DNA of 64,000 nucleotides from Baffinella frigidus (taxonomy: Eukaryota; Cryptophyceae; Cryptomonadales; Baffinellaceae): assembly GCA_026770585.1 (NCBI GenBank), contig MU646340.1, positions 596,715 through 660,714 of the forward strand. Direction: 5' to 3'. The notes beneath the pieces were generated by a model. The model saw only the letters and a program-made list of their open reading frames with translations, searched no databases and had not been told where the DNA came from. Positions 2,915-36,127 of this stretch are shown here, piece by piece (the first letter of the stretch is position 1; each line of letters starts with the position of its first letter). Position numbers and translations under genes: made by a program.

Positions 2915-3061
2915 CGTGCCATCCTTGGTCCCCTTGCCAAGATCTGAAGATCCTTCTTCTCGCGTGGGATTTGCCTTGATATTTGATGGTCAAATTTGAT
3001 CAACTGGTTGATGGTCAAACGAACGGATCTGAAAGGCGGGTCTCTTGATGCAGCGGCACCA
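2915..3061. promoter_or_regulatory. Divergent promoter, 147 bp between start codons
   Basis: This is the whole space between the ATGs of two divergent genes. It contains TTGATGGTCAAA twice, ending at about 2994 and 3019. With flanking bases the first copy is the near-palindrome TTTGATGGTCAAA. The same 12-mer in reverse complement lies in the NFACT/TRM5 divergent promoter at 30538-30549. A shared regulatory element is inferred. Confidence 0.55.
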
Positions 3062-6000
3062 ATGACGACGACTCCTGCTGGGGCCATGCCGCCGGCCTGC
3101 ACTTTCCGCGCTCTCCTCCTGGTCTGCATTCTATGTCTGGCCGCTCCGCCGCTCCCCGCAGCGCCACTCCCCACAGGGCGATCCGTCGCATCGTGCGCTC
3201 TCTGCCTGCGACTTCGCGGTGGAGCGCGCCAGGGAGTGGAGGTCGCGGTGCCGAGGGACGTCGAATCGCTCCAGACCGCGGTGGACGGGGCAGGTGCGTC
3301 CGTTCCGCAGCTTGCCAGCGTCGTGTGCTCGCTCGACGATGTTCCGCCGAAGAAATGAAGTACCGGGTGCGGTGTGAGCAGGGCTGCCAGAGTCTGCCAT
3401 CAGGGTTGTGCGCATGATGCGCGGATGCCACGACACGGAACAGGAAGTCAGAGTTCCCAGCATCAATGGCCTCGAGATATTCGGGGAGGACAGGCCTGTT
3501 CCGCTCGCCCCTGGCTTGACAGATCCCATGCTTCACTCTCACCTGCTTCTTGAACGCCGAAGGCATCAACAGGCCGGGGTAGGGGTGAGAGCAACGCCGG
3601 TGCAGCACGATCTCAAACGCACGGGTCACGGGTGAGCAGTGTTGAAGGACACGACGTGCCCGACATCCCACCATCTCTCTTTGCGAATGCAAGTTCTGAC
3701 GCCGGAGAGCAAGCGCTGCTCGAGGCCACCCGCCGGAGAGAGGCGTTCCAACACGCAAAACTCGAGGCCAGGTCCGCCCCCCCTCCTTCTCCACCCAGAC
3801 GTGTTGGGTGCGGCTGTCGGATCGCGCCCCGGCTGTTCCTTCTGCTAGGCGAGCGAGGAGGCTTTGTGTGATGCAGACACAGTCGCGGCGGATGAGAGCA
3901 AGGTGGTGGGCGCTGTGTGCAGGTTGGTGCTCGGAGAGGGCTCGAATGGCGTGATGCGCGAGATGCACTGCTTCGACCCCTTCGAGCGCCGGGACCCGTT
4001 CAAAGCCGCTGTGAGCCTCCGCTCCAGCATGTACCCATTCGGCGCTTTTGTCAGGAGAATGGAGATTTGCCTCCTTCACAGAAGATCTCCTTCGGGGAGC
4101 GCCCGCAGGCGCGAGGGGTGTGAGAATCGGGTCTGCCGAAATCGTGAGCTGGCACAGATTCGAACGTTGACCTGACTGCACTCACGCAACGAGAGGTGGC
4201 TGCACTCGCGCCACTTGATCTGGCTCTACTCCAGCCAGATCAAGTGCTGCGAGTGCAGGAACTTCACGTTGTGTGGCGACGGGCTTGATCTGGCTGATTT
4301 ACTCGAATCGGCAGTCCAGGATCTGGCTGATCCACTCACGAAACTCGATTCCTACTCACGTCACTCGATCTGGCTGTTCACGCAGGTGGAAGTGCACGGA
4401 GCGCCATGGCTTTTCCATCAATCGCGGCTTCAATGCTCGGAGGCACGCCAGCCCACCCGACACGATCCAGCACGCACCGCAGGGGCCCCGCTACCTGCTC
4501 GCGTTATGGCACTTGCGGCCTGGCTCGCTGGGCAACGTTCCGACTTTAACAGCAATATTCCGACTTGAGACGCTCCTTGCAGACGAGCGAAGGATGCACG
4601 CCCTAGCACGATGCTCGTTCGCTGGAGGATTCTTGAGGCACAGGGACTCACTCTCATGTGTGGTGTGCGGCAGGGGGTGGTGGTGCGGGCGATGCGCTCA
4701 GCCGGGGTGGTGCTGAGCGAGTGCGTCGTCGAAGGGCTTGACTCTGATGAGTTGAGAGCAAGCATCTGCGCGAGTGTCGAGGATCGAGCGTGCATCCGCT
4801 CCTACCACTCTGTCTTCCAGGTCTCCTACCGCTGTCTCAGTAACACTGCGCTGGCCATCAATTACATTCAGTGCATCAACTCCAGTAGAAATGGGTGTAT
4901 GGCAACTAGCATGCTTTTAAGACGAGCGTAGTTTGATTCAGACAGAGCTAGGTCTCACTCTCGCGCGCGCGACCCGCCTGTTCGGGTCCAGCACTAGCCT
5001 TGACGCGGCGCAGTCCCCACCAGCATATCTCCACGTTGGGGAGAGGGTGTCGACATTTTCGCACAGAGAGTTTGGAGGCAGCTCGCGTTGGATGGCGCGG
5101 GCGCCCTTCGTTGCCTGCTTTCCCCCCTTCTTTTCTTCCTCTTTTGCTTCGTTTCTTGTCTCTTTTCCTTTCCTGCTTTTTTTTCTTCGTGGCCTGTTTC
5201 TTTTCCGTGATGCGTTGGGCACTGCCACGGGGCGATCCCAGGACGCGTACGGGGCGATCCTGCGCTCGACAGGCTGGGGCGGCGGGTCCTACACAAACTG
5301 CTCGGTGCAGTACGGGGGGTACGGGGTCGCAGTGCACGGCACCGGCTCTGCGCTCCTCGAGGGCTGCTTCATCCGGCGCTTTCGCCACGGGGGGTTCATC
5401 GCGTGGGCTGACGCCGGTGTGGACCCCTCCCCGTCCGGTGCCTTGTCGCTGCTTCCTCCTAGCTGTGCATCAGTTTGGGGGGGCTCTTTGTTAAATATAT
5501 ATAGAGCAGGACTCTGTGCAAACCTCCAGTACAAAGAGCATCTAAATGTATGTGATGAAGAGCCCAGGTTCAGCATTTTTCCCGCGGGCCAACGCGTGCA
5601 CCACTTGAGGCTAGAAAGAGGACCATTTTAAATGTGGGGTTGTTAAATTTAGTACCAGTCACGGGCAGGCGTGTTATATACCGCCCGATACGTGACCAAA
5701 CGCCCCCATTTGTATGAAAATTACTACACGTCTCTTCTTTTTTCATCACATGTAAACGAATCCCTGTTTTACACTTCCTGTTTTACACTTCTAGCCTCGA
5801 GTGGCAGTCCCTTCCGCTCCGGCGTTGCACGATCTGTAACACCCCGGGTTTCGTGGTTGTATGGGTCTCCAATAAATTCTGCGGTTTTATGGGTATCCAA
5901 TAAATTGCCGGCGTGGTGGCAGAGGCTGGCACGCGGATAACGCTGCGAGACCTTATCCTTAGGAACCCCCCTATGCCCCTACGGGTTGCCTACCGTAGGG

Positions 6001-18493: not shown

Positions 18494-21400
18494 TCATCGC
18501 TTCTTGGGAGGACGTTGCTTGCCCCCTTTCTTGCGATACGCCTTGCTCGCCCCCCCCTTCGACCCGGTCCCCGCGCGCCCCTGCCAGAACACACCCCACA
18601 CTCCGTCAACGCCCGCACCTTCCATGCACCCATCACCCGCTGGATGCACCCTGGCCCTGGCGCGCTTCCACGCCCCCCCCCCGCCTGCGGTGTTCGACGT
18701 CGCACGCGGGTCGCTAGCACACGTCCCGCACGGCCGCCAGGAGCATCGGGGGGGGGCACGCGCGGCGGCGGCCAGGCCTGCTCGGAGTCCAGGAGAGCGG
18801 AGAGACAGGCGGGGTGTACCAGGAGGTCAGCGACGACGCGCGCGTCGCCCAGCAAGACCGGGAGCACCTCCGCGTCGGGGAGTGCCTTGATGAGCTGCAG
18901 CTCTTTCGCGCGCTGCTTCCCGTCCGCGGCGTTTGCTGCTGCGACCGATTCCGCCTCCAGCCCACGCGCCTCCTGCGGGGTGCCAGGAGGATCAGCGCAC
19001 ATCGTTCCCGCCGAGGGGGGGGCGAGGGTGTCACGCCTCTCTCCCTGCATTTCGCTTTCCGCGGGCGTGCCATGCCATCAACAAACAGTGCTTCCCGCCC
19101 TGTCCTGCCTGGCACACCCTCGGAGCATGGTGCAAGCATCTTGGATACATCTCACACGTGCACACACAGGACCATGCAGAGGTGTCTCAAGAGGTGCCCG
19201 TGGTCAGGGAGGGGAGGGGAGGGGAGGGTTGACCTTTTCGAAGTAGTTGAGCGCGGCGCTGAGGGTGCCTGCCAAGGCAACACACCCATTTTCACCAAAG
19301 AGACACACAAGCACCGCGTCATGAGACACGAGTCCGGACCCACCCACCAGGAGCAACGTGACGTTCTGGCATTTCGCTGATTGCAGGGGTATGCAGGTGC
19401 GTGGCGGGTGCAGACCTGAGCGTTTCCCACTGCCAGGTAGGAGTTTCACGCGGTAGCGGCATCCTTCCAAAGCTGAGAAGGGCCCACACACCCCCATGGC
19501 CTGCCAGCGGAGCAGCCAGGCTTCCTTCTCAGTGTTCTCAATCTTCAGGTTATGAGTCCAATATGGCTCCAGGTCATTTCGCCGCTGGGGGCAGGCAGTC
19601 CGGGATGGGTGAGGACCCTGGGATCTCAAGGACCGCCTCTAGGCTGGTTGGTCCGAGTTTCCATGTATTCTTCAGGCTGATTGGTACTGGGGGGGCGCAA
19701 TGCGAGAGAGAGGTTTGGCAGGACAACTTGGGGTTGCCGCAGGCACGTTAACAGGGTAACGTCTTGAAAACCAGGTAGTTGGGCCTACGGTATTGCCTAC
19801 TGTAGGCCGTAGGGCTCCTAGGACCTAATGTTTCGTAGGACCCCCCCTAGGCCCCTACGGCCTACCGTAGGCAATGCCGTAGGCTCAACTACCCAGTTTT
19901 CGGGGCGTTAGCCTGTGAACGTGCGACACTTGTCCGTGGAACCGAGTTGGAATGTCACCGACAGGAGGGGACTAGTGCCAGGGGGGGGCTGTAGAGGGGC
20001 ACTCACGAAGATGAGCGGATCAGAGGCCTTCGGCGAGCCTGGTGTGGGGATGAGGGATTAGGAACCAGAGTTTACGGTTTAGGAATTAGGGTTTGGGGAT
20101 TGGGGGTCAAGGTGAGTGGTGCGTAGGTTCTAGGGTGTAGGGATTAGGGACCCCCCCAGGTGTCCGCGCGCGGGCTGGAGTGCGGTTCTGCGGTGCATGT
20201 TCCTGTGCCGGCTGGAGGGAGGGCGGGATGGAGGGCAAGTGAGGAGGGGGGTGGGGGGTGGGTCGGAGCGCACCTGTCAGGAGCCGCAGAACCTCCTCGG
20301 ACCCTTTCGGTCCTTGCCCCCCCTCACCCTCGTCCTCCTCCTCCTCCTCCTCCTCTCCCTCCTCGTCCCCCATCTCGTCGCCACCTTCCGGTTCTTTGCC
20401 GTGTTTCGCACCGTTCTCGGGAGCACCCTCGTCGGGTTGCTCATCATTCCCACCAGCCATCTCCTCGAGGCGTCCCTCTCCCCTACCATCCTCCCCACTC
20501 TCTTCTCCGCTGTCCTGCGCACACTCGTCCCCTCTCTCCTCTTCGCTCTCGCCTTCCCCACGTGCATCCCCCGCGTCGGCACACGCCAACGACATACCCT
20601 CAACATCCTCCACCAACGTTTCCACGCCCCCCTCCTCCTCCCATCCCCCATCTTCCCCGTCTCCGCCCCCCAGCTCACTCGAATCACCCCCCCCTGACAC
20701 CTCGGCAGCGCCCTCCCTCGCAATCCCCCCTTTCCCCACCTCTGGCGCATCCCCTCCCCCCTCCTCCCCCTCCTCCCCCTCCTCCGCATGCGAGCCAACA
20801 GGAAGAGCATCCTCGAGCTCGTCGAAAGCCTTGCGTCGAAACATGATCCCGAATCCCATCTGCATCATTATCTGTCGTGGGGGGGGGCAACGATCACGCC
20901 TCACAGTTCCACATCGTTCCTTTCCTACACCTCACAGTTCCACACGGATGCCTTGGCTACAAAAACGTAGGATCCCGCGCGCGGGCAGGGGTGGTGCGGG
21001 GACCTGCAACGGGACGAAGTTTTTCTTGCCGCGAATGACGAAGCTGCCTGTGGTGAGGTACTCGCCTGCCTGGGGCGTCTTGCTCACCTGGCTCGGATGC
21101 ACCCACCACGCCTGCGCCCCGCGCCACCACCGCGCCGTCAACACTCGGGTCGTCCTGCGCGGGTACGGCAAAACACCCGGCAGGCGCAGGGTTGCGCACG
21201 TTTCTTCCCCTGAGGGCTGTGCACAGTGTGCACGGTGGAGGGTGAGGTTGGTGGATGCGGAAGGGCGCACCTGAGTCCCGCCGGCAAGCTTTGCCTTCCA
21301 CGCCTTGGAGCGGCATACGGCGAAGCTGGCTGCCTCCTCGATCGTGCGGGGGGGGACAGCCCCGCCTGCCGGAGAGGCCACGCACTCCTTGTTAGTGTTG

Positions 21401-22331
21401 CGCCTCGTGCTCGGCACTTCTGCAATTTTGTCAGTCTTTGAGAGTGGACCACCTGCGAGATGCACTTAGTGCCCACTAGGTGGACCACTAGGTGGACCGT
21501 GCGGGTGGTCCACGCACAGACGTGTTCTTTCCAGTGTGTCACTAACCAGCAGAACATGTAGTAGCAGCGCACGGTGCGCGCTTCTCCAAGAGGACGCACG
21601 CAATGCAGGTTGACCAATTTGGAGGTAGTGGGAGGAGCTCTGCGTCACGTCCCGGGTGGAGGTCTCTTGGTTTGCTGGGAGAGTGGAGGGCACCAGCGTC
21701 GTTTCGGATGATGACGGTTGCGGCACCGTGCACGTCTGCGTGAACATACACGTCTTGAGATCGCATGTACCTGCCGCAGTCGCGCGAGATCACGAGGTTG
21801 GTGCACACCGCCCGCAGGTGCGCACACCACGCATCACTGCTCTCAGACATGGCGAGCAGAAACAAAAACAGCCGCAGGTGCACCACACACAAACAGCTCG
21901 TGTGCACACGCAGACCACGCACACTGCTCTGAGGCGAGCAGAACCAGAAACAGCGCGCAGTGTTGATGGCACGAAGGCGCTCGGGCGTGGCTAGGGTTTC
22001 GCTGGACCTAGCGGAATTTTGTGCATACTGTACACGGTGTGCGCATAGGAGGGTGAGGTTGGTGGATGAGGAAGGTGGGCGCGGGGGGTACCGCTTGACA
22101 AGAAGTTCGTTCTGATGCGCGTCCTTCCCAGCGACAACCACGCATCGATCCGAGGACACGAACCTGCTCCCCGCGGGGCGCGGCGTCAGCCATCAACCAC
22201 TCTCGTTGCACGCACCCCGTGCAACCTCACCACGCCTGCTTAACCCCTCCAGAAACAACTCTCGAACCCGCTAGCAATCATTTCGTGTGAGAAATGCCAC
22301 GTGTTCCTGTGACAAGTGGCACGAGGAGGAG

Positions 22332-22371
<40 letters not shown>

Positions 22372-25300
22372 GAGACCAGAAGAACTTCTCGAACCAGACG
22401 CGCTTCCGCCCCTCGCGGATCCCGAGCGGCGCCTCTGCCTGCTTCCTCGCCGCCTGCCCCCCACACGCCCCCGCTCACTTGACTCCACCGCGTTCATGAC
22501 ATACTTGATACGATACGATACTCAGCGTCTGCAGTCTCCAACACGTCAACATGCCCGTCCATCTGAAACCCACACTTACCCCTCCCGCCTCGCTCGCTTC
22601 CATCCCGACAGCCAGCACGCGCGGGAGCAAAGGGCCCTCTAGACAGCACCACGACCACGTTGACGGCACGGTCTCGTTTGAACAAGTCCAACCTTCACCC
22701 TAAACACCAGGCGCTGAAAGTGGCAACGCGGCATTGGTGGTGGGTCGGAGCGGACATCTCGCCAGCTGGTCAGCCTTGGCGCTGACCGCAAGTGTCTACG
22801 TGTCGATAAGGTTGGTGGTGGGGAGGAGCGGACCTCTCGCGCGCTGCCCCCCTCGCGAGGCAGCATCGCATCCTGGCACCCGTGATTGCGCCACTCGGCC
22901 ACGGGAGGGGCACACCTCTCTCGCACTGCGGTTAGCCTTGGCTGTGACTGCAAGTGTCTACGTGGCAACGCGGCCTAGTGGTGGGTCTGAGTGGCAGTCT
23001 GAGTGGCAACGTCTGAGTGGCAACGCGGCCTAGTCTGAGTGGCTGAGTGGCTGTCTGAGTGGCAACGCGGCCTGGTGGTGGGTCACGCTGCGCAAGGTGG
23101 CCTGTTTGGTGGTGGGGAGGAGGGCACCTCTCTTGCGCTGCGATCAGCCTTGGCGCGCGCCTTCTTCATCGACGTGCTCTCTGCCTCCTGCGTCCGCGCT
23201 TCCTGCCACGGAGAGTGCATTTGTGTTGAGAGAGAGAGAGCGAGGAGGGTGCCACTTGTTGAGAGAGAGAAGACGGAGCATCCGAGGAGGGACTAACTTG
23301 TAAGTGTGTGCAGGAGCTTGTTTCATCGTCTCTTCGTTGTTACCCTCAAGACTTGTTGAAACCTGATCAACTCAGTACTCGGCGCGAAGGCACTGGGTAG
23401 GTACAGGTGCGCGCCCTATCGAGGAGGCGAAGCGCATGGAGGGACCGACATGTGCCCAAACACGAAGACGCAAGCGCGGCCCAACGCTCCAGGGTGGTGA
23501 CAACAACCACCACGAACAAGTAATCCCAAACCCCACACCCTGAACCCTCAACCTCAAACCGTTATCGGGTGGGGGAGGAACCTTGGAGGCAGCCTTCTTG
23601 CGCTGCTGATGGAATTCGCGCGCACTCGCCATGCCGCTCTGGTCCAGGCCCACCGGCACCAGCACCTGTCGTTTTGGGGGTCGGGGTTTGGGCCACTAGC
23701 ACTTGTTGCGCCGCCCGTTCACCAACCACCGTTGCCACCTACCACGCGTGACTCACCCGGGGGTGTTTTGTAAAGTGGCAATGGCGGTGCGGAGGTTTCC
23801 TTCCGTTTCGGGACGCTGGGAGTGGAGGTAGATCCGGAGCTAGTCAAGGTGATGCAGGGTCGGGCGATCGAGATGGCAGCCACCTTGAACGAAAAGGGTG
23901 TTGCAAACATAGTGTGGGTGCTGGGGGACGCCACCATCGCCGCTGAGCAGTGTGGGGGGCAGCAACAGCACAGCCACGGCACCGGCATCAAGCGCGGTGG
24001 TGACAGAAGGTGTGAGGCAGACCTCTCCGCTGGCCGCAACCCCTGGAGCTGGGACCTCAGCCTCTTGATGGGTGGTATCCGCCTCGTCGTCATCGAATGC
24101 CGGCAGCCGCAGCACCACCTAGTCCATGAGAAGAGGCCGAGGGGGGGGGGCGCGAGCGCGTCAGTCCTGTGGCTCATAAGCTGTGGTCAGCCCTGTCAGC
24201 ACTGCCGCGCGCCGTGTCGCGTGTCTGCCAAACCTCGCCACCCGAAAGTGCATCGCAAAAGCGTGCGCCGCATGCCTCTCACAGACGCACGCGCAGGCGG
24301 ATTCATGCCGGGGCACAGCACGTCCCACTCTCAGGTGCAGCCCAACGCACCTCTGAAGGCGGCAGCTCGCAGCTGTGCAAAGTAGGTCATGGTCAGGGTA
24401 AGCCAGCGGCAACAACAAGGGAACCTGTCGTTTTTCGAGGAGAAGGCTGTCGACGAGGAGCGCGGACGGATCGCCATTCTCGCGCATCTCAGCCAGCGCC
24501 GCGTTGATTGCTGTCCAGTCGCGCAGACGATGCACCTGCTCCCGCACCTGCCACCCTCCCTATCAGCCACTACGATCGAGGACGATGCGTCGCGGTGGAG
24601 TGTCATCTGCTCGGGAGAGTGCCCGCGCGAGAGAGACACTGGTGTCGCCGCCGCTTGCAACATCCCCGAGTTCCGGCGTCAACCCAATTCTGGCATTCCG
24701 TATCACCCTACCGCATTGCATACAATAGCACGAATTGCAAACGGTAGCACCCGGAATGCCGGAGTTGGGTCGACGCCGGGATGAGGACGTCCACTCTTAC
24801 AGGGAACGGCACGCGCTCTTGGGCAGGCCATCGCAGCGACGGTGAACACTAGTCGGTGCACACACTCGCGCGATCCATCGCATTGCTGCACACAACGCTG
24901 TTCGAATGAAGGTACGGAGGACGGCACGCGCTCTGGGACGGACCATCGCCACGGCGGTATCGACGGCACCCGCGTTGGCCTCCACCGCCATTGCCATCCG
25001 CCCGCAGTCGTCCTGCACAACGTATACGGCCGATTACACAGCGCACGATCGACTCACACATTCACGCGAAACGCAAAAGACGGTCTGGCCGCGTTCTCGC
25101 CTCCACCTGCCATCCGCCCGCAGTCCTCCTGCTCCCCATCGTGTCTTGTTAGCACGACTGCAGGGCGACCCGCCACGCCGCAAAGGGGGGGGTGGCTTCC
25201 TAAACCCCAAACCCTAAACCCTAAACCCTAAACCAGGTTGCGTATTCGACTGCTTGCACAGCGCGCCATCGACTCACACATTCACGCGAAACGCGAAAGA

Positions 25301-26198: not shown

Positions 26199-29100
26199 TA
26201 CCTTGGTGTCGCCCGTGGCAGCACGCTCGCGTTCCAGCACACCAAATTCTCCACAATGCACCATGCATCCAATTCGTGGGAGAGAGATAGCACGGTGGAG
26301 AGGGGGAAGGCATACCTTGGTCTCGCTGGTGGCAGCCCGCTCGCGTTCCAGCACCGAAAAGTAGTCGTCCACCTGAGAGTGTAGGGTGTAGGGTTGAGGG
26401 TTGAGGGTTGAGGGTTTTGTGTTCAGGGTTTAGGGATTAGGGTTTAGGGTGTCAGGGTTTATATTTTGGAGTGTAGGGGCAAGGGTGCAGAATTTTGAGT
26501 CGCTGGTGGCAGCCCGCTCCAGCACCGAAAAGTGGCCGTCGACCTGTGCCACGCGGCTAAGTCAATCCGGGTGTGGGGTGTGGGGAGTAGGGTTTGGGGT
26601 TTCGGGTTTCGTGTTTGGGGTGTAAGGTTCAGGGTTTGGGGTTTAGGTTTTAGGAATTGGGATGTAGGTTTGGGGTTTTTCGATTTTAAGGGGTTAGAGT
26701 TTGGGGTTTCAGTTATAGTTTGGGGGTTAGGGGTAAGGGTGTAGAATTCAGAGTTTGGGGGACCAGGGATCAGAGTTAAGTGTTTGGGGTAGGAGCAGGG
26801 TGTCTCAATTTTGGTTTGGGGTCCATGGTAGAGAGCTGGGTGTTGATTGTTGGGTTGAGCGGGCGTGTGTAGGGATCAGGGTTTGGAATTAAGGGTTTGG
26901 GGTTTAGGGTTTAGGGTTGAGGGTTGAGGGCTGAGGGTTGAGGGTTCAAGGATTCGGGTTTAGAGTGTAGGGTTTAGGTTTTAGGGTTTAGGGTTTAGGG
27001 TTTGAGGGTGAGGTTTTCGAATGTAGGGTTTAGCAAGGGGAGGGCAGACCGCAACGTCGAAGCTGGGGAGAGCCACGTGTGACGTGCCCGCATACTGCTT
27101 CAGCAGCAGCGGCGAGAAGTCGTAGTACTCCACCGCTGCCTCCCCCGCCTCGTTTGTGGCCCCTGGCATTCGGGTTGGGGATCGGATTATCGTGAGGAAC
27201 ACGGCCTACCCCCCGAAACCTTACACACCCTACACCGCACCATCAGTAGGACTAGCATCCAAAGGGGGGTTGACACATAGGGACCGCCTGTGGCCCATGG
27301 ACCCCATCTTTCGGGAGCGGGAAAAAATGGCAAACGTGGCAAACGTGGAGAAAGTTATGGGTGGTTTCACGAGTACCTGTGGTCGAGGGGCGCGTCCAGA
27401 TGAAGCCTTCTGAGACGGCTCCTTCTCTGTCCAGGATCATACTGTCCACCTGGTGCAGGGTTTATCATGACGTGTGGGCGCGCGTTGCTGCCTGCCTCGG
27501 AGGCACACCAGGTATCGGGGGCAGGTGTAGGGGATCGCAAGGACCTGTTGGGGGGGCAGGTGTAGGGGGTGGGTGTAGGGGGCAGGTGTGGGGGTTCTCA
27601 CTAGGTGTAGGGGGCATATGTAGGGGGTCGCACCTGCTACATCAGGTGTAGGGGGTTGCCGGACCTGCTGGAGGGCGTGGAGGAGCGCGTCCTTCTCCTC
27701 CGCTGTTCGCTTCTCGATCTCCTCATCTGCTGACGCATTCACCCCCCACCCTGCCCAGACAACACCCCCCGACATTCACCCCCCACCCTGCCCAGCCAAC
27801 CCAACACCCTCAAACAGTGCACGGTGCATGCGATCGCGCCTCTGATCCAACCTTCCTAGGACAGTGCTGCTAGGAAAGGGTGGCGGGGGGGGCAGGTTCG
27901 CACCGGCAGAGAGGAGGGCGTGCTCGACGAGCTGGGGGCCATAACACGCCGCGTCCGCCAACAGCCGGCACACCTGCATCTTCCGCCTCACCTTGGAGTT
28001 GGGTCCCCCAGGGCCCGCCTCCGCGCGCACGGCCACGGCGCTCGCCACCACCGACGCCAGCACGTCGCGGAAGCGCGTGGCCTCCATGCGCCCCGGGGCG
28101 CCGGATGAGGTGACGGGGTACGTGCTGCGGACGCGCACAGCCACGCCGTCGGGGGAGGTGTAGGGGCGGAGCAGCGAGAGGATGGTGAGGCGCTCGTCTG
28201 TGAGGACGATGTTCCCTCCCGCGTAGAACTCGAGAAAGAGGAGGGCCGTGTGGTTCCCGTACCCGAACGTCAGCTGCAGTACCCGGTCGCTTCCCACCTG
28301 AACACAGGGCGGGGAGCGTCACTGTTGTGGGGCTGACCCCGGCCTACGGGGATTCAACCGCGACGATAGTCACATAGCGCGGCGTCTCCTTCAGACGGAG
28401 CGCTCTCTCGCGCCAACCTGGATGTCAGCCTCTTCCGGAGCACTTCCGCCAGCACTAGCCCCCCACACGCAGGCGTGCCCCCCCTCCCGCGCCTGCGAGC
28501 AGCACCACACGTTTAGGGTCTAGGGTTTCCTAAACCCTAAACCCTAAACCCGAAACCCTGGACCATGCACGCCCCGACAGGCAGGAGCACGGTGCACCGC
28601 GTGGATGTGGCGCTGCCTCGCCTATGTTGGGAGCTCGAAGAGCCTAAAGGACCTAAAAAACGCATAGATCTAAGTCTAAGGGTTTTGGGGTTTAGTCAGA
28701 TGATGACGGTAGGAGACGACGGAGATGATTTGAAGCGGGGGGGGGGGCGAGAAAACTGTGGCGCGAGAAGGGGCGCGAGAACACGCCGAGGCGAGGAGGG
28801 GCGAGAGGGTGGACCTGCTGCACATCCTGGAGGCGCTGCCCCCGGAGGTGTTTCCGGAGCTTGGCCGCGAAGTTGGAGGGTCGCGCGCCCTTGTCGCGTT
28901 CGAAGCGGGAGGTGTGGATGCGGACGCCGCTCTCGATCACCACGATTGTCTTCCGCGCGGATCCGTCCTCTTGCAGCGCATCCGATGCCGCTACCTGCGC
29001 CGTGCCCACAGGGTTGGGGGTTGGGGTTGAGGGTTAAGGGTTGAGGGTTGGAGGTTTGGGGTTGAGGGTTTGGGGTTGAGGGTTGAGGGTTGAGGGTTGA

Positions 29101-30277
29101 GGGTTTAGAGTTTATGGAATAGGGTTTAGGGTGTAGGGTGTGGGGTGTAGGGTTTAGGGTTTAGGGTTTAGGGTTCAGGGTTTAGGGTTTAGGGTTTAGA
29201 GTGTAGGGTTTAGGGTTTCGGGTTTGGGAATTTGGGGTTGAGGATTTGGGATTGAAGGTTTTGAGGTGTACGCCCAAGGAGCGCCCCACCCTCCCAACAG
29301 CCCTCAGCTGCGCGAGCGTGGGAGAGGAGCACGCAGCGACCACGGGTGAGGTCAGGGCTCTCACCGCCAACTCGTCGCCGGTGCTGGTGCCGTTCTCATA
29401 CCCCCCAGGGCGCCACGCCGCGCTCGCAGCCAGCTTGAGAAGGATGCACTTGGCGTTGATGTCGTAGATGTTGGCGACGCGCATTCCGACGGATGTCGCG
29501 CGAAGGGTGCGCGCTTGCACCTGCAAAATGCCATGCGATCCTGCTCACCCCCTCCTCCTCCAGAGACCCCCCATTACTACATCAATAAACACTAAACCCG
29601 AACCCGCGACCCCTAACCCCTAATCCCTGACACCCTACCCCTAGCCAACCCCTAACACCTCACCCCCAAACCCTGACCCCTGACCCCTGACCCCTAAACC
29701 CTAACACCTAACACCTCACAACTAACCCCTAACCCCTAACCCCTAGCCCCTGACCCCTGACCCCTGTCCCCAAACCCCTCAACCCTGAATCCTCAGAAGG
29801 GTGAATCGCGGTTCCCACCTGAAGGTCGAGCGCCGACATTCGTCGCTTGCCATCCTCCGCCACCAGCACCCCGGCATTTTTCGTGGCCTCAAAGGTCGTG
29901 GCTGCTGGCTCTTCCAGCGTGGCATCGTCTTCGATGTCGCCACTCGCATTCTCGTCGGCATCATCATCTGTGAGCGGCTTGGCAGGTGCCGCAGCAGGCA
30001 GGGAGCGCTTGAGCTTCGCCAGGCGGGCCTTGAGCAGGCACAGGTGCGACATTGTCGACTTGTTCTTCTGTGTGCGCGAAATCTCCAGCTCGATGTCTGC
30101 GATCCGCTTCGTAGCATCCACACCGCCGCCGCGCAGCTGCAGAAGGCGAGAGGCCGCAGCAAAAGCGCCGGGCCGCTCGGGGGTGCTTCCGTGCAAAGTG
30201 TGTGCGCCAAGCGGAGCAGGAGAGGCGCAGCTGGAAAGGACAACCGCAAGGATCAGCATGCCCTGCGAGGCTGTCAT
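18494..30277 (-). CDS. NEMF: NFACT/NEMF/Rqc2-type ribosome quality-control factor with presequence and DRG-like hairpin (1132 aa)
   Basis: Twenty-five exons join in phase: 30277-29819, 29520-29365, 28994-28815, 28297-27904, 27726-27665, 27449-27377, 27162-27050, 26372-26316, 25812-25732, 25012-24944, 24535-24425, 24118-24023, 23665-23582, 23202-23128, 22453-22377, 22163-22092, 21770-21694, 21365-21271, 21111-21004, 20859-20274, 20038-20007, 19500-19416, 19268-19234, 18972-18838, 18580-18494. Family members bind 60S subunits carrying stalled nascent chains and direct CAT tailing. Visible markers: MRVANIYDI (about 166), ESGVRIHT, the Asp269-Arg270 (SDRV) motif, WFEKFFWFVSSD (about 689), [44 protein letters not shown] (NFACT-R), an acidic linker (about 820-1005), [20 protein letters not shown] and ALNYFEK (NFACT-C), and a Lys/Arg tail. 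Unusually, residues 1-52 are signal-like and end in LQLRGGG. Residues 54-92 match the N-terminal hairpin of DRG GTPases ([20 protein letters not shown]), with no GTPase domain following. Confidence 0.9.
19758..19909. mobile_element. Foldback element in NFACT intron 21
   Basis: AACGTCTTGAAAACCAGGTAG followed by GGCCTACGG at the left is answered by CCGTAGGC, CAACTACCCAGTTTTC and GGGGCGTT at the right. The middle carries GCCTACTGTAGGC palindromes. At about 150 bp with no ORF, it is a MITE-like element related in its core to families 1 and 2. Confidence 0.65.
24790..24850 (-). repeat. Ghost copy of NFACT exon 10 end
   Basis: On the plus strand, GAACGGCACGCGCTCTTGGG plus CAGGCCATCGCAGCGACGGT resembles GGACGGCACGCGCTCTGGGA plus CGGACCATCGCCACGGCGGT at 24920-24960, the end of exon 10 and the start of its intron. 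In addition, 25038-25085 and 25258-25305 are near-identical copies of one intronic segment. Confidence 0.5.
25975..26540 (-). repeat. Multiple degenerate copies of NFACT exon 8
   Basis: The real exon 8 (26372-26316) encodes [19 protein letters not shown] and ends in an AAG/GTATGC donor. Related copies occur upstream in transcription at about 26533-26490 ([17 protein letters not shown], no donor) and downstream at about 26240-26200 ([14 protein letters not shown] plus donor) and about 26105-26060 ([12 protein letters not shown] equivalent in a shifted frame plus donor). The unit also repeats flanking TAGCACCAGCACAGCTG. Poly-G and a 10-N gap at 26157-26166 lie inside, so copy number is uncertain. 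Confidence 0.7.
26385..27040 (-). repeat. Telomere-like array in NFACT intron 7
   Basis: Degenerate GGGTTTAGGG-type units on the plus strand read CCCTAAA in the sense direction of the gene. Exons 7 and 8 bound it. Smaller sense-orientation arrays lie at 29020-29265 (intron 2) and 20040-20150 (intron 20). Confidence 0.85.
29580..29790 (+). repeat. Telomere-like array in NFACT intron 1, antisense orientation
   Basis: CCCTAAC,CCCTAAC and CCCTGAC units on the plus strand, so they read GGGTTAG on the NFACT sense strand. It is one of the exceptions to the usual sense CCCTAAA orientation. Small patches at 25200-25235 and 23523-23570 are also antisense. Confidence 0.8.
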
Positions 30278-30646: not shown

Positions 30647-33600
30647 ATGGCCAACGCAGGGGCAGCAGCCGCCCCGCTGGCCCAGCTGGACCGCGCTCAG
30701 GTGCGGGAGGAGCTGTCGCTCCTCGCGATCCTCCTGCCGCCGAAGCAGATCGCGGCAGCGCTCAAGTCCATCAAGAAGCTCCTCCTGAACAGAACCCGGC
30801 AGCAGAACGTGGTGGACGCGCCCAAAGGCAGCAGTGAGGCAGGAAAATCGCCTGGAAAGCTGCTTCTGCTGAGCGAGATCATCTCGGAGAAGTACATGAG
30901 CGAGGGGGAGTCCGTGGAGCTGCTTCCGGAGGAATGTCGCGCCGTGCTTGCCGGCGAGGGCTGTGAGCTGGTGAAGCATAAGATGGTGCTGGAGTACGAG
31001 CATTTCACATACGAGGAGGCACTGCGGAAGGTCAGGACCTCTCTGGTGCCTTGCCTCTGCTTCCAAGGGGGGGATGGGCTGGCACCGGCATCGACTGAGC
31101 GCTGAGGCGTGTTTCGGCAGGTGCTGCCGAGCGAGGTGGAGGTGCCAGGATCGTTCGAGACGATCGGGCACGTGGCGCACCTCAACTTGCGGGAGGGGCA
31201 CGAACACTTCCGCCTGGTGATCGCACAGGTTATGATCGACAAGTTCCCCGCCATCAAGTGACCGCCCCTCCCGCCGCCCTGCACCAACAAGCCGCCCTGC
31301 ACCAACAACAGCCCTTTCCGTGTAGCAGGAAAATTTGGAGAAGATTCATTTGTGCTGGCCACGCGCGCTGCTCATCCCTGATTGATATTGCCCCTTCTCC
31401 CAGGACGGTTGTGAACAAGATGGGAACGATCACCAACACCTTCCGGGTCTTCGCGGTCTGCCATCCAATCTATCCCCCCACCTATGCTCCCAGCGCATCT
31501 ATCCCCCAAACTATGCTCCCAACTACCCCGCTGGGAGCATAGTTGAGGGGAGAGAGTCTGCCATCCAATCTCTCCCCCCACCTACCCCACATCCTCCCAG
31601 CGCACCACGCCCAAACCTTTGCCCCTCAGAACTTCTTTTGCAATAAACACACCACCATTGCCGTCGATCGATTTGGAACCGCACGGTGTTGACGATGGGG
31701 CCCTTGCGTTGAGCAGATGGAGGTGCTGGCGGACAGGCTCGGAGGCACTCTCCCGCGCGTGGCCCAGCCAGGTGCCAACCCCAACTTGATCTGCCTCATT
31801 ACTCACACTCACTGACACCAGCAGTTTCTTGCGAGTGTTGCCAGCCATGATGTGGCACCAGTCAGGAGAGTACGAGCTGTGATTTCGACAAGCCTGAGAG
31901 CGCGCACAGAGGCACGCCAACGTTTCCAGGCCCGCAACTGTGAAGTGGCGGGGGGAGGTCTGCCTCGCTAACGAGAACGACGTAGCAGCGCCCAGACACA
32001 CCCCGCGTGCTGGTGTGGTGGGTGGTTCCCCACCGGCTGTTTTCATGATTGGTTGCTCTCCGGATGGTGGATGCAGGATCCAACCTTCCCTATCGCCGTC
32101 CACCGCACGAGGGTCCCACGGTTTGACCATCAACATATTTGATGGCAGGCGACGCAGCGCTGGAGACGTCGGTTCGCCAGAACGGCAGCATCTTCTCCAT
32201 GAACTTCGGAGAGCTCTACTGGAACTCTCGCCTCGAAGGTACCCCCCCTCGCAAACAGCGGGCGCCGGAACCGCGGGCGTGCCGGGCGACGGGGGCAGTG
32301 GGTGGCCGTGCCGCGCGCGGTGGGTGGCAGTGGCACGCGCGTTGCTCCCCGGCCTGGCCCAGCCTGGCTCTGACTAGCTTTGCCTGATTAATTGTGGGCT
32401 CTGTATTGCACTTGCACGGGTTTACCAGAGTGGATGCTCTAAATTCATTTTAGGGTGAGGCCAGTTTTACTCGGCAGAGGTGGACTGACACGGGGGCATC
32501 ACGCTTCGCAGCCGAGCACTCGCGGCTGGTCTCGACCTTCACGGGCAAGGACGAGGTCTGGGACATGTTCGCTGGTGCGCTTCCCCCCCCCTTCCTTCGT
32601 GCACGTTGCCAGGACTTGGTCAGGTGGTTCCTAGCCCGACCCATACCGTGAAAGTCACGGCCGGGCTAAACCCTAAGACCTGATCCCTAAAACCTTGTCC
32701 TAAAACCTAAACCCTACACTCTAAACCCCAAACCCTAAACCCTAAACCCTACGCCCTGAACCCTAAACCTTCAACCCTGAAACTTGAATCCTGGACACTA
32801 AACCCTAAACCATAAACCCTGAACCCTGAAAGCCAAACCCTCAACACACAACCCTAAACCCTAAACCCTAAACCCTAAACCCTAAACCCTTAACACTAAT
32901 CACTGAACCCTGAACCCTAGACCCTAAATCCTGGACCCTGAACGGCTGAACTGATAAGCCCTAAACCCTAAACCCTGAATCCTGAACCCTAAACCCTGAA
33001 CCCCAAACACTAAACCCTGAATCCTAAACCCTAAACCCTAAACCCTAAACCCTAAACCCAAAACCCTAAGCCCAGAACCCAGAACCCTAACCCCGAACCC
33101 CAAGTCCGAAAACCTCAACCCTGGATTATCAACTTCAAGCCATAACCGACCACACCCTCAACCACTACACCCTAAACACTAAACACTCAACACTATACAC
33201 TAAACACTAAACACTAAACACTAAACACTAAACACTAAACACTAAACACTAAACACTCGACTCCAAATCCTTAACCCCAAACCATCAACGGGTACACCCT
33301 GAACCATAAACCATAAACCATAAACCATAAACCATAAACTATAAACCATAAATCCCAAACCCAAAATCCCAAACCCTGAACTCTAAACCCTAAACCCTAA
33401 ACCCTAAACCCTAAACCCTAAACCCTAAACCCTAAACTCAAACCCTAAACCCTAAACCCTCACGTTTTGCCCCTAAACCCTAAACCATGGAACCCTGACG
33501 GCTAAACTGTACACCGTGAACCGTAAACCGTTAACTGTAAACTGTAAACCGTACACAGTAAACAATCAACAGCAAACCGTAATCTCCAGACTCTAAACCC

Positions 33601-36127
33601 TGAACCCTATACCCTAAATCCTGAACCCTAAACCCTCAACCATAAACCATGAACCCTAACAGCTAAGCCCTAAACCCCAAACCCTGAACCCCCAAAGGCT
33701 AAACCCTAAAGCCGCAACCCTAAACCGTAAACTCTAAACCCTGAACCCTAAACCCTAAACCCTAAACTCCAAACCCTAAACCCTAAACCCTAAACCCCAA
33801 ACCCCAAACCCCAAATCAAACGGCGGTTTCTGCATAGCCTGACCCGTGATGAGCCACGACGCCCCCACTCCCCCCTATCCGCTCCCGGATGCAACATTCT
33901 CGCACCCTGAAGCAAGCCCTCTCGCCACAGGGATCGGGCCATTCGCAGTCCCGGCCGCCAAGTCACACTTCTGCAGGTGCAACCCCTCTCACCTCTCCAC
34001 CCACAAGATCCCACCCTCGTTTTCCAGCGTAACCCCGGCGGTGCTCAACCCACACAGTGGGCTTCCAAGGGATTTTCGGGCGCTGAGAGCCCGAGTTTCC
34101 GTTACATCATCCGTAGGAACCCCCCTGTGCCCCGACGGGTTGCCTACCGTAGGGTCCTAGGTCTTATCGCTTAGGGGTTACTCAAAATCCTTTGGAAGCC
34201 CGCTCTGTGGTGTACGCGTCTGTGGATGGGCAAAGGGCGTTTGAAATGCTGAGTGTGACAGACTTGGCTGGCGGCAGGGTGTATGCCAACGACCTCAACC
34301 CGCGCTCCGTGCACTACCTCGACGAAAACTGCCGCCTCAACAAGGTCCGTGCACTCCTTGTCAAGCGGCGTCAGGCTGGGCAAAGTTGCTCACAGCCGTG
34401 GGCGTCAGGGCTCTAAATCTGAGAGCAGAGGCGAAGACACTCCCTACCCTCCTACGATAGATTGGTGAGCGGTCCACTGGGATGGGGTCCAACCGATGAG
34501 AGACTAGTGGCTGTCGATAGGGCTACGGTACGTGCGCCCTGCACTATATGTATGTATACTATATATATACTCTATATATACATATACTAGGTGAGAGCCT
34601 AGTATGATATATATATATACTACTAGCCATGCATGTATATACTAGGTGATCGATGGTTCCAGACGGAGGCCTTCCAGCAGTGCCCAGCCCCCGCGCGGGA
34701 CCCCAGCGACGCGCGGCTCCAGGCAGTGCGGTGGTTGACCCCCCCCGCGCGCGCTCGCAGGTGACGGACCTGGTGACAACGTCGTGCTCGTGCGCGCGCG
34801 AGTTTCTGCGCGGGCGGGTGTCCGCGTGCGGTGACACGGTGCCCCGCCCCCCCCGCGCTCCTCGCCAACTCTGTCTCGTGCTCTTCGGCGCTGGCGCCTC
34901 ACCGCAACCCGTAGCGCGTGGTGCACCGCACGCATGAGGCACGGCCGTGTGCGGGAGTGCGAGAGGCGCGCTCTGCCAGCCGCGCGGGGGGCTGACCGTG
35001 TCAGTGCTTGGGGGCTGACTGTCCTCGGGGACTGACGCTGTTCGGGGGCTGACAGTGCTCGGGGGATGGCTGACTGTCAGTGCTCGGTGGATGGTGGTGG
35101 CGGGTGCACAGGTGGCGGCGGCAGGGGGGCGGGTACACTGCATCATGAACCTCCCCCAAGATGCCCCCGAGTTTCTCGACTGCTTCCGCGGAGCCTTCCG
35201 CCCCGACGTCTGGAAACCCCAGGTTCTTGCGCTACTCGCTCCCGCAGAGAGAAGCGTGCGTTTATTACGGATCGAACCCAACATGGCCACCATGTATTCC
35301 CGCTGCTGTTTTCTTCCAATGCTGGTGTGTCTCGTTCCTGCAGAGAGAAGCGTCCGTTGATTGCGGATTGGAACCAAAATGGCCACCATGTATTCACGCT
35401 CTCAACTTCCATGGTGTGATTCGTGTGTCCTTAATTCCGAGTAACCTCTGTAACACGCGATGCGTGCACTACAGGGGTACCTCGCTCATAAGAAACGCCC
35501 ACACCCCCAGGACCCTACAGTGGGGCCCTATGGTAATCCTGGGGGGGTGGGCGTTTCTTATGAGCGAGGTACCCCTGTACACGCAGGAGCTGCCGATGGT
35601 GCACCTCTACGCCTTCGCCAAGAGCGCTGACCCGGACGAGTGCACCCAAGACATCGCACGCCGTGCTGTGGCGGCACTCGGGTCAGCCCCAACCTCAACA
35701 CCCCCGCCTGCTTCTTCCGACCCCCCGAGTCTCTGAACCGGAAGTTACCAGTCAACTCTCTCTACTTACACGGCCTAAGTGAATGTACTTAAGGAGGCTT
35801 AAGTGAATCTCCGCCGACGTCCTCATAACCTTGCGTCCTTAGATGCCCTGAGAGCTAGATACCCACAGAGTCGACGTTGCATGCACCCGACCTGCAGGGG
35901 CGTGGTGTGGGGCGTGGTGCTGAGTGGTGGTGCTGAGTGGTGGTGCTGAGTGGAGTGGCGTCGGCAGGTGCGAAATCCCAGGACTAACTTCGCACACGGT
36001 GCGGGATGTGGCGCCGCGCAAGCTGATGATGTGCCTCTCGTTCCCGCTCCCGCCAGAAGCCGCCTTCGCTTCCATTCCCGCAGGCGACGGGGTAGAGCAA
36101 CGCGACGCCAAGCGTGCGAAAGCGTAG
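30647..36127 (+). CDS. TRM5: tRNA (guanine37-N1)-methyltransferase, Trm5 family (438 aa)
   Basis: Twelve exons join in phase: 30647-31030, 31121-31257, 31404-31455, 31717-31771, 32149-32238, 32512-32574, 33931-33976, 34278-34344, 34761-34817, 35112-35222, 35587-35681, 35968-36127. The enzyme transfers methyl from SAM to N1 of G37 in tRNA, preventing frameshifting. Diagnostic segments in order: VEVPGSFETIGHVAHLNLRE (about 133), NKMGTITNTFRVF (about 178), ELYWNSRL (about 232), SAM-site MFAGIGPFAVPAAK (about 258), VYANDLNPRSVHYL (277), IMNLPQDAPEFLD (about 327; the N-L-P active-site motif), and a C-terminal VRDVAPRKLMMCLSF. The length is typical. There is no obvious presequence, so cytosolic or nuclear action is inferred. 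Exon 4 adds about 14 residues after MEVLA that I do not expect in the family, so that boundary is less certain. ATG 30647 gives the expected start. Confidence 0.93.
32640..33815 (+). repeat. Telomere-like array filling TRM5 intron 6 (about 1.2 kb)
   Basis: Mostly CCCTAAA in the sense direction, with locally homogenised blocks of other units, such as AACACTAAACACTA at about 33175-33255, AACCATA at about 33303-33350 and AACTGTAAACCGTA at about 33505-33555. It lies between the exon ending MFAG and the exon starting at IGPF, so it splits the SAM-binding motif codons. Confidence 0.9.
34105..34205 (+). mobile_element. Family 2 dispersed repeat in TRM5 intron 7
   Basis: It closely matches 5957-6045 and 40360-40465: TCCGTAGGAACCCCCCTGTG, GGGTTGCCTACCGTAGGG, TCTTATCGCTTAGGGGTTAC, ending AAGCCCGCTCTGTGG. 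It lies 73 bp upstream of the exon 8 acceptor. Confidence 0.7.
35247..35400 (+). repeat. Two-copy tandem duplication in TRM5 intron 10
   Basis: GCAGAGAGAAGCGTGCGTTT ... ATGGCCACCATGTATTC at about 35250-35312 recurs at about 35337-35400 as GCAGAGAGAAGCGTCCGTTG ... ATGGCCACCATGTATTC. It is non-coding. Confidence 0.7.
35472..35577. mobile_element. Palindromic MITE, family 1, in TRM5 intron 10
   Basis: Near-perfect terminal inverted repeats: CAGGGGTACCTCGCTCATAA at the left and TTATGAGCGAGGTACCCCTG at the right. The central CCTACAGTGGGGCCCTATGG completes a full-length foldback of about 106 bp. It lies 9 bp upstream of the exon 11 acceptor. Confidence 0.85.

Follow-up and report, generated by a model that had tools for sequence, protein, structure and literature searches.

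The window, by which we mean the whole 64-kb stretch of Baffinella frigidus DNA that was analysed, carries on its minus strand a gene (Table 1) that is, judged by its sequence, the NEMF/Rqc2 orthologue of this alga. Its first exon is an ORF of 153 codons, the coordinates and reading of which were confirmed in the window. It encodes, in this order, a hydrophobic leader, the motif LQLRGGG, a DRG-type helix-turn-helix (HTH), an acidic linker and the N-terminus of NEMF/Rqc2. The exon ends in CTTCAG, with the donor gtggga directly behind it. Exon 2 starts at 29520, directly after gcattttgcag, and exons 3 and 4 start at 28994 and 28297. All junctions of exons 1–4 are in phase 0, as had been predicted for the join to NFACT exon 2.

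Table 1. Features of the NEMF/Rqc2 gene, in coordinates of the 64-kb window
Feature	Coordinates	Strand	Remarks
Exon 1	29819..30277	−	153 codons; homologous ORFs P0001, P0053, P0005, P0052
Leader, residues 1–45	30143..30277	−	hydrophobic core, mean Kyte-Doolittle 2.63, signal-peptide-like
LQLRGGG motif, residues 46–52	30122..30142	−	7/7 in P0005 and P0052, 6/7 in P0001 and P0053
DRG-type helix-turn-helix with TQKNK apex, residues 53–94	29996..30121	−	
Acidic linker, residues 95–142	29852..29995	−	less conserved, 18/42 vs P0052
NFACT N-terminus, residues 143–153	29819..29851	−	
Exon 2	29365..29520	−	NEMF 15–42 region
Exon 3	28815..28994	−	NEMF 47–93
Exon 4	27857..28297	−	NEMF 88–178 and beyond; 5′ boundary firm, 3′ boundary less so
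Exons around and with NFACT-R	21010..22447	−	matches 22447–22364, 21775–21659, 21381–21286, 21114–21010
Exons with NFACT-C and C-terminus	18497..19500	−	match 19500–19417; C38:615211-615725 converted to window coordinates

Comparison of the three minus-strand frames with solved structures gave matches to human NEMF residues 15–42, 47–93, 88–178, 365–412, 509–536, 555–590, 577–608, 611–645 and 996–1023, in unbroken order as far as about 19417. Four of these nine stretches (15–42, 365–412, 509–536 and 996–1023) are very weak when taken alone, at or below about 0 bits against 9gy4, and the order is unbroken with them. NFACT-R and NFACT-C exceeded their cut-offs in single frames of the window, and NFACT_N stayed below its Pfam cut-off when the window was scored exon by exon. 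The NCBI model of B. frigidus, T484DRAFT_2017782 (P0004, 1008 residues), is 100% identical to our 320-residue query over the 54% of that query which it covers, the remainder being exon 1; the model exits exon 4 before 27857. Its exons lie within the window and it gave NFACT_N (1e-15), NFACT-R (7.8e-40) and NFACT-C (3.7e-18), in order and all over the Pfam cut-offs, which bears out the NFACT identity originally proposed.

Within exon 1, KRRMSALDL aligns to NEMF from residue 2. Since G143 stands at the position expected for the NEMF start Met, the ancestral start appears to have been lost. An Asp-Arg pair is found in exon 4, where GSDRVLQL aligns with GVDRIVDF of NEMF, and we take its Asp to be Asp98 of yeast. 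In yeast Rqc2, Asp98 is described as a conserved residue needed for tailing (PMC4805532).

A divergent neighbour occupies 30647–34416 on the plus strand, with 370 bases between its predicted start and that of the NEMF gene. By eye, its exons suggest a tRNA methyltransferase of the TRM5 type. The ORF 34153–34416 matched TRM5-TYW2 at 1.1e-5 with 25.9 bits, below the cut-off of 28; nothing was matched by three further stretches of the neighbour. Apparent introns of the NEMF and TRM5-like genes (32650–33820, 29000–29260 and 29580–29800) contain telomere-like CCCTAAA/TTTAGGG arrays and degenerate forms of them.

The DRG-type hairpin and its occurrence in relatives

Searched against 177,635 distinct PDB sequences, exon 1 matched Rbg1 (4a9a, E 1.9e-5, query residues 57–97; 7rr5, 2.2e-5) and Rbg2 (1.1e-4), the remaining matches being just two, at E 0.87 and 1. 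Pfam and NCBIfam gave no relevant match for exon 1, none below 0.2. A profile made from four fusion sequences matched NEMF (4.4e-12, positions 152–231) and Rbg1 (7.9e-11, positions 65–102) on separate stretches. A profile search had been named as the means by which the predicted DRG-type hairpin might fall, and it does return DRG proteins.

Over 36 residues, the hairpin of the window is identical to Rbg1 at 22 positions, to P0003 (named ribosome-interacting GTPase 1 in a source) at 28 and to P0002 at 29. P0002 has neither a Pfam domain nor a name, and its hairpin is our reason for counting it as a DRG. The algal fusion hairpins are 28–31/36 identical among themselves, and the TQKNK apex is kept in the window, in P0001, P0053, P0052 and P0005, and in the mite protein P0054 described below. 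The G domain with its S5D2L insert and the TGS domain were not found: exon 1 continues into NFACT, and P0004 gives NFACT domains only. On this reading of its sequence the window protein is not a DRG and carries one DRG domain, a helix-turn-helix that, according to a 2021 review, seems to be confined to DRG GTPases (PMC8629797).

Elsewhere in its genome B. frigidus has a DRG-like gene (L019, from C645:89203 on); it starts with MNRDAPQEKIQAIELEMARTQKNKATE, has no evident leader and has an intron inside the hairpin. It was rejected as the source of the window hairpin, being identical at 19/36 positions, compared with 28/36 for P0003 and 29/36 for P0002. A further candidate for a DRG (L022) carries what is presumably an Ola1/YchF-type P-loop instead. 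Whole-genome Pfam searches with NFACT_N and MMR_HSR1_Xtn gave 0; these zeros were not used as absence, because the NFACT gene and a DRG-like gene are both present and exons were scored singly.

Protein searches returned 3 proteins from 160 candidates, and 48 and 21 proteins, each among the best 8000 scored candidates. The close pair P0001 and P0053 has the leader (in P0001 its end only), the hairpin, the linker and the NFACT start; both proteins have a Met directly after GGG and continue as V-G past the NFACT start, which is what translation across an unspliced gtgg donor would give. P0052 and P0005 are so similar that they count as one lineage; they have a different leader, FLQLRGGG, the hairpin, the linker and NFACT, unbroken into the exon-4 region. 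P0005 reads on through introns. Because its CSSSNSTPAATSC can be the shifted-frame reading of an 11-residue peptide, P0005 is unspliced at that point, and the DNA ahead of it, from the leader to the start of exon 4, is probably contiguous.

When the window was compared with P0052, identities were 8/40 in the leader, 7/7 in LQLRGGG, 33/42 in the hairpin, 18/42 in the linker and 11/11 in the NFACT start. At the level of sequence, conservation is thus modular: the motif is invariant and the hairpin domain is retained, whereas the leader drifts and the linker varies freely. P0007, of a longer and deeper sister branch, has the second helix HLGQLKARLSKLRKLL ahead of NFACT, preceded by sequence that looks like an intron, and P0008 ends before the hairpin region. 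From EEDDV on, P0006 is identical to P0052 at 207/208 positions, and has unrelated sequence where the leader and hairpin are expected; P0006 represents 1 member sequence, P0052 8 and P0005 3, and we tentatively regard P0006 as chimeric or as a spliced model.

Baffinella, P0005, P0052, P0007 and P0008 formed one clade (100/98) with two branches in a tree built from 33 NEMF rows; P0005 and P0052 fill 16% of the columns, and P0007 and P0008 were flagged for unusual composition. We infer from these sequences that the hairpin was gained before the two deep branches of the lineage split. Guillardia theta NEMF was not among the matches listed (best 8000 scored candidates), and viral contigs scanned with P0052 yielded no relative. 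A separate exon 1 transcript, considered in the original prediction, is disfavoured because exon 1 itself contains the NFACT start and the whole unit is kept in the relatives. The same prediction had known of no description of the fusion, and none was found among the papers listed.

A motif scan of 58 proteins, followed by reading, placed a DRG hairpin at the N-terminus of P0054, a protein of the mite Halotydeus destructor that is annotated as NEMF. P0054 had been found with a profile containing the hairpin, from which no fusion rate is derivable. Its residues 2–42 match Rbg2 (8.8e-7) and Rbg1 (2.3e-6), a linker follows, and NEMF begins at residue 82. The mite hairpin is identical to the algal ones at 20–21/36 positions and to Rbg1/Rbg2 at 22–23/36, and hairpins alone say little. 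Because P0054 groups with animal NEMFs in the tree (100/100; its pairing with Aphis, 87/60), and the motif is lacking in the other three animal NEMFs there (Aphis, Acanthaster and Branchiostoma), the mite fusion is probably independent of the algal one. It is known solely as a database model and may possibly be a gene-model chimera. NFACT proteins elsewhere had been said to lack such additions; the leader and hairpin are indeed extra to NEMF, although the mite NEMF has the DRG hairpin too.

Leader, translation start and compartment

The core was hydrophobic in all four leaders compared (window, P0053, P0052 and P0005), two of which are near-identical. This holds despite the low identity of the window leader to both P0052 and P0005, and LQLRGGG is kept while the remaining leader drifts (window vs P0052). 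The hydrophobic leader ending in LQLRGGG that had been noted earlier is present, and the core is hydrophobic in relatives too; by its hydropathy it resembles a signal peptide.

The pattern L.LRGG occurs four times in the six frames of the window, three times preceded by a Met and a hydrophobic stretch. Among 200 third-order Markov windows, this leader pattern, which was chosen post hoc, had a mean of 0.015 and a maximum of 1, and three occurrences were reached in 0/200. Besides the NEMF leader, the pattern is found at 2755 (−) and 3206 (+), in the ORFs 2207–2989 (−) and 2987–3358 (+), and the generality of the motif is judged within this 64-kb window. These two ORFs stand head to head, and in both a Met and a hydrophobic stretch precede LRLRGG, which is reached after about 50 residues, as in the NEMF leader; Pfam gave no match for them. 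LRLRGG is the tail of ubiquitin. We found no literature joining an LRGG-type word with Guillardia, and among the matches listed RLRGG was absent from the nucleomorph/cryptophyte literature.

The public model P0004 starts internally, at MSALDLQ (M147), and is therefore without leader and hairpin. The earlier prediction had named an internal start at this Met as a refutation, and such a start may be used as well. Of the two candidate starts, M1 has the better context, with G at −3, compared with C at −3 and T at +4 for M147. When P0004 was searched against the genome of the window, 21/21 matches at E 0.01 (20 candidates) fell on contig C38 at this gene, as did 4/4 matches at E 1 (8 candidates) obtained with P0055, a distant NEMF of Coccomyxa. 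The second, leaderless NFACT gene for which a search had been proposed was thus not found with these two queries in the 382 Mb genome, an assembly that may be incomplete and so may miss such a gene. The published CCMP2293 assembly is reported as 535 Mb with 72.3% BUSCO coverage (PMC9756366). Exon 1 itself is single copy in the 382 Mb genome; a candidate second copy (L002) was rejected (E 0.6, 28%, two stops inside, in a repeat-rich stretch).

B. frigidus is a cryptophyte, as the earlier reading had guessed of the source. According to the rule described for cryptophytes, a signal peptide points to the periplastid space when the transit part behind it begins with a residue other than an aromatic one or Leu (PMC4494062). 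By eye, cleavage of the window leader after SCA, CAS or LGA would give S, P or H at +1. None of these likely sites has an aromatic residue, so that under the rule the periplastid compartment is the favoured predicted target. The leader would then bring part of the NEMF into the ER and from there to the periplastid compartment, in which endosymbiont 80S ribosomes read nucleomorph mRNAs, and a leaderless NEMF from a downstream start or transcript would serve the cytosol. Such dual use is likely, and it accounts most simply for the one NEMF locus found, since an exclusively periplastid NEMF would leave the cytosol without one. The earlier proposal of ribosome rescue inside an organelle fares accordingly: the leader is signal-peptide-like, but an organelle-only role is hard to square with the single locus. 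For tyrRS1 of G. theta, signs of dual targeting to periplastid space and cytosol are reported (PMC4494062). We found no literature linking ribosome-associated quality control with the nucleomorph.

NEMF might also be mainly cytosolic, made from M147 or from a shorter transcript, with the leader form minor or sent elsewhere in the secretory pathway. This has a modest chance of being correct: there is one locus, the NCBI model begins at MSALDLQ, and the Met directly after GGG in P0001 and P0053 could start a leaderless hairpin-NEMF. A leader whose hydrophobicity and LQLRGGG are kept amid drift is, however, hard to explain if it is unused, and the better context is that of M1.

A predicted contact near the 60S A-site

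Rbg2, bound to the leading ribosome of a stall, is described as using its G and HTH domains to touch H89, the sarcin-ricin loop and the stalk base of the 60S (PMC8040806). Rqc2/NEMF is described as recognising the sarcin-ricin loop and the P-site tRNA once the subunits have split, and as interacting with the A-site tRNA (PMC5562442). Because these sites overlap, a grafted hairpin could offer NEMF one more point of contact in this region. The accounts of the A-site tRNA contact are at odds: it is assigned to S5D2L and not to the HTH in PMC8040806 and PMC8629797, whereas the HTH apex Lys is described near the A-site tRNA in PMC9001643. The hairpin had been predicted to dock the protein on the ribosome. 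That it is DRG-type stands, yet Rbg1 without its HTH is reported to lose its function while still cosedimenting with polysomes (PMC3510508); since association is retained, general docking is, by analogy, less plausible than an added contact near the 60S A-site.

On the split 60S subunit, NEMF would recognise the exposed peptidyl-tRNA and the sarcin-ricin loop and recruit the A-site tRNA. Tethered by a flexible linker, the hairpin may add a DRG-type contact near the sarcin-ricin loop, the stalk base and the A-site tRNA, and this contact might steady NEMF or the tRNA in C-terminal tailing, or help NEMF to displace a DRG GTPase. A NEMF used in both periplastid space and cytosol, with the hairpin adding such a contact, is our best explanation overall, and one that could equally well turn out to be wrong.

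We consider it unlikely that the hairpin is instead a regulatory handle, its apex Lys in TQKNK being hydroxylated by a JMJD7-like enzyme, or the hairpin being bound by a DRG partner. The apex is common to the window and the relatives listed above, the mite included, and, counted on the human sequence, K22 of DRG1 is presumably the last K of TQKNK. DRG1 K22 and DRG2 K21, at the HTH apex, are described as the site of JMJD7 hydroxylation (PMC9001643, PMC8629797). A host JMJD7 would, however, need import into the periplastid space. It is highly improbable that exon 1 arose as a chimera or by chance, with a DRG-like piece and a leader that merely lie open beside NFACT exon 2: other frames are also open in this GC-rich stretch and P0006, a near relative of P0052, is without leader and hairpin, but the parts are kept together in P0001/P0053, in P0005/P0052 and partly in P0007, and the NFACT start lies within the same exon. 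That the fusion is real, a NEMF with leader, LQLRGGG, DRG hairpin and linker before NFACT, we regard as nearly certain.

The conserved graft of the DRG hairpin on NEMF, made probably twice, is a natural experiment on the role of the hairpin at the ribosome. If the leader works as it looks, it would suggest that ribosomes are also under quality control in what remains of the cytoplasm of a red-algal endosymbiont. A bolder scheme, which we hold doubtful, would make this host-encoded NEMF the periplastid branch of ribosome-associated quality control, the ubiquitin-tail-like LxLRGG a mark for processing or import common to other imported proteins of this genome, and the hairpin an adaptation to the reduced endosymbiont 60S; the mite graft would be separate and the hairpin a portable module for 60S A-site factors.

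Comparison with known systems

The window gene resembles NEMF/Rqc2/Tae2, the eukaryotic members of NFACT (RqcH in bacteria and archaea), in its exon order, which follows human NEMF 15–1023, in NFACT_N, NFACT-R and NFACT-C and in the DR pair; it differs by the 142 residues ahead of the NFACT start (leader, LQLRGGG, hairpin and linker). With the DRG GTPases (DRG1/Rbg1 and DRG2/Rbg2) it shares the 36-residue N-terminal HTH with its TQKNK apex. There, GTPase, S5D2L and TGS follow the hairpin, and none of them is in the window protein; in DRG the HTH is described as packing on S5D2L (PMC3510508), which NEMF does not have.

The periplastid and dual-targeted aminoacyl-tRNA synthetases described for Guillardia theta (PMC4494062) resemble the NEMF, as predicted here, in being nucleus-encoded translation factors with a signal-peptide leader, few copies and a logic of alternative starts. 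They are different proteins, and some were localised by GFP in a diatom, whereas the compartment of NEMF is predicted here from sequence. The mite NEMF P0054 is like the window gene in having DRG hairpin, linker and then NEMF. It has no leader and keeps the NEMF start Met, in contrast to the window gene, where a leader is present and the Met position is G143. As the mite hairpin comes without a leader, the two additions need not belong together, and this second pairing of DRG hairpin and NEMF suggests that the combination is useful.
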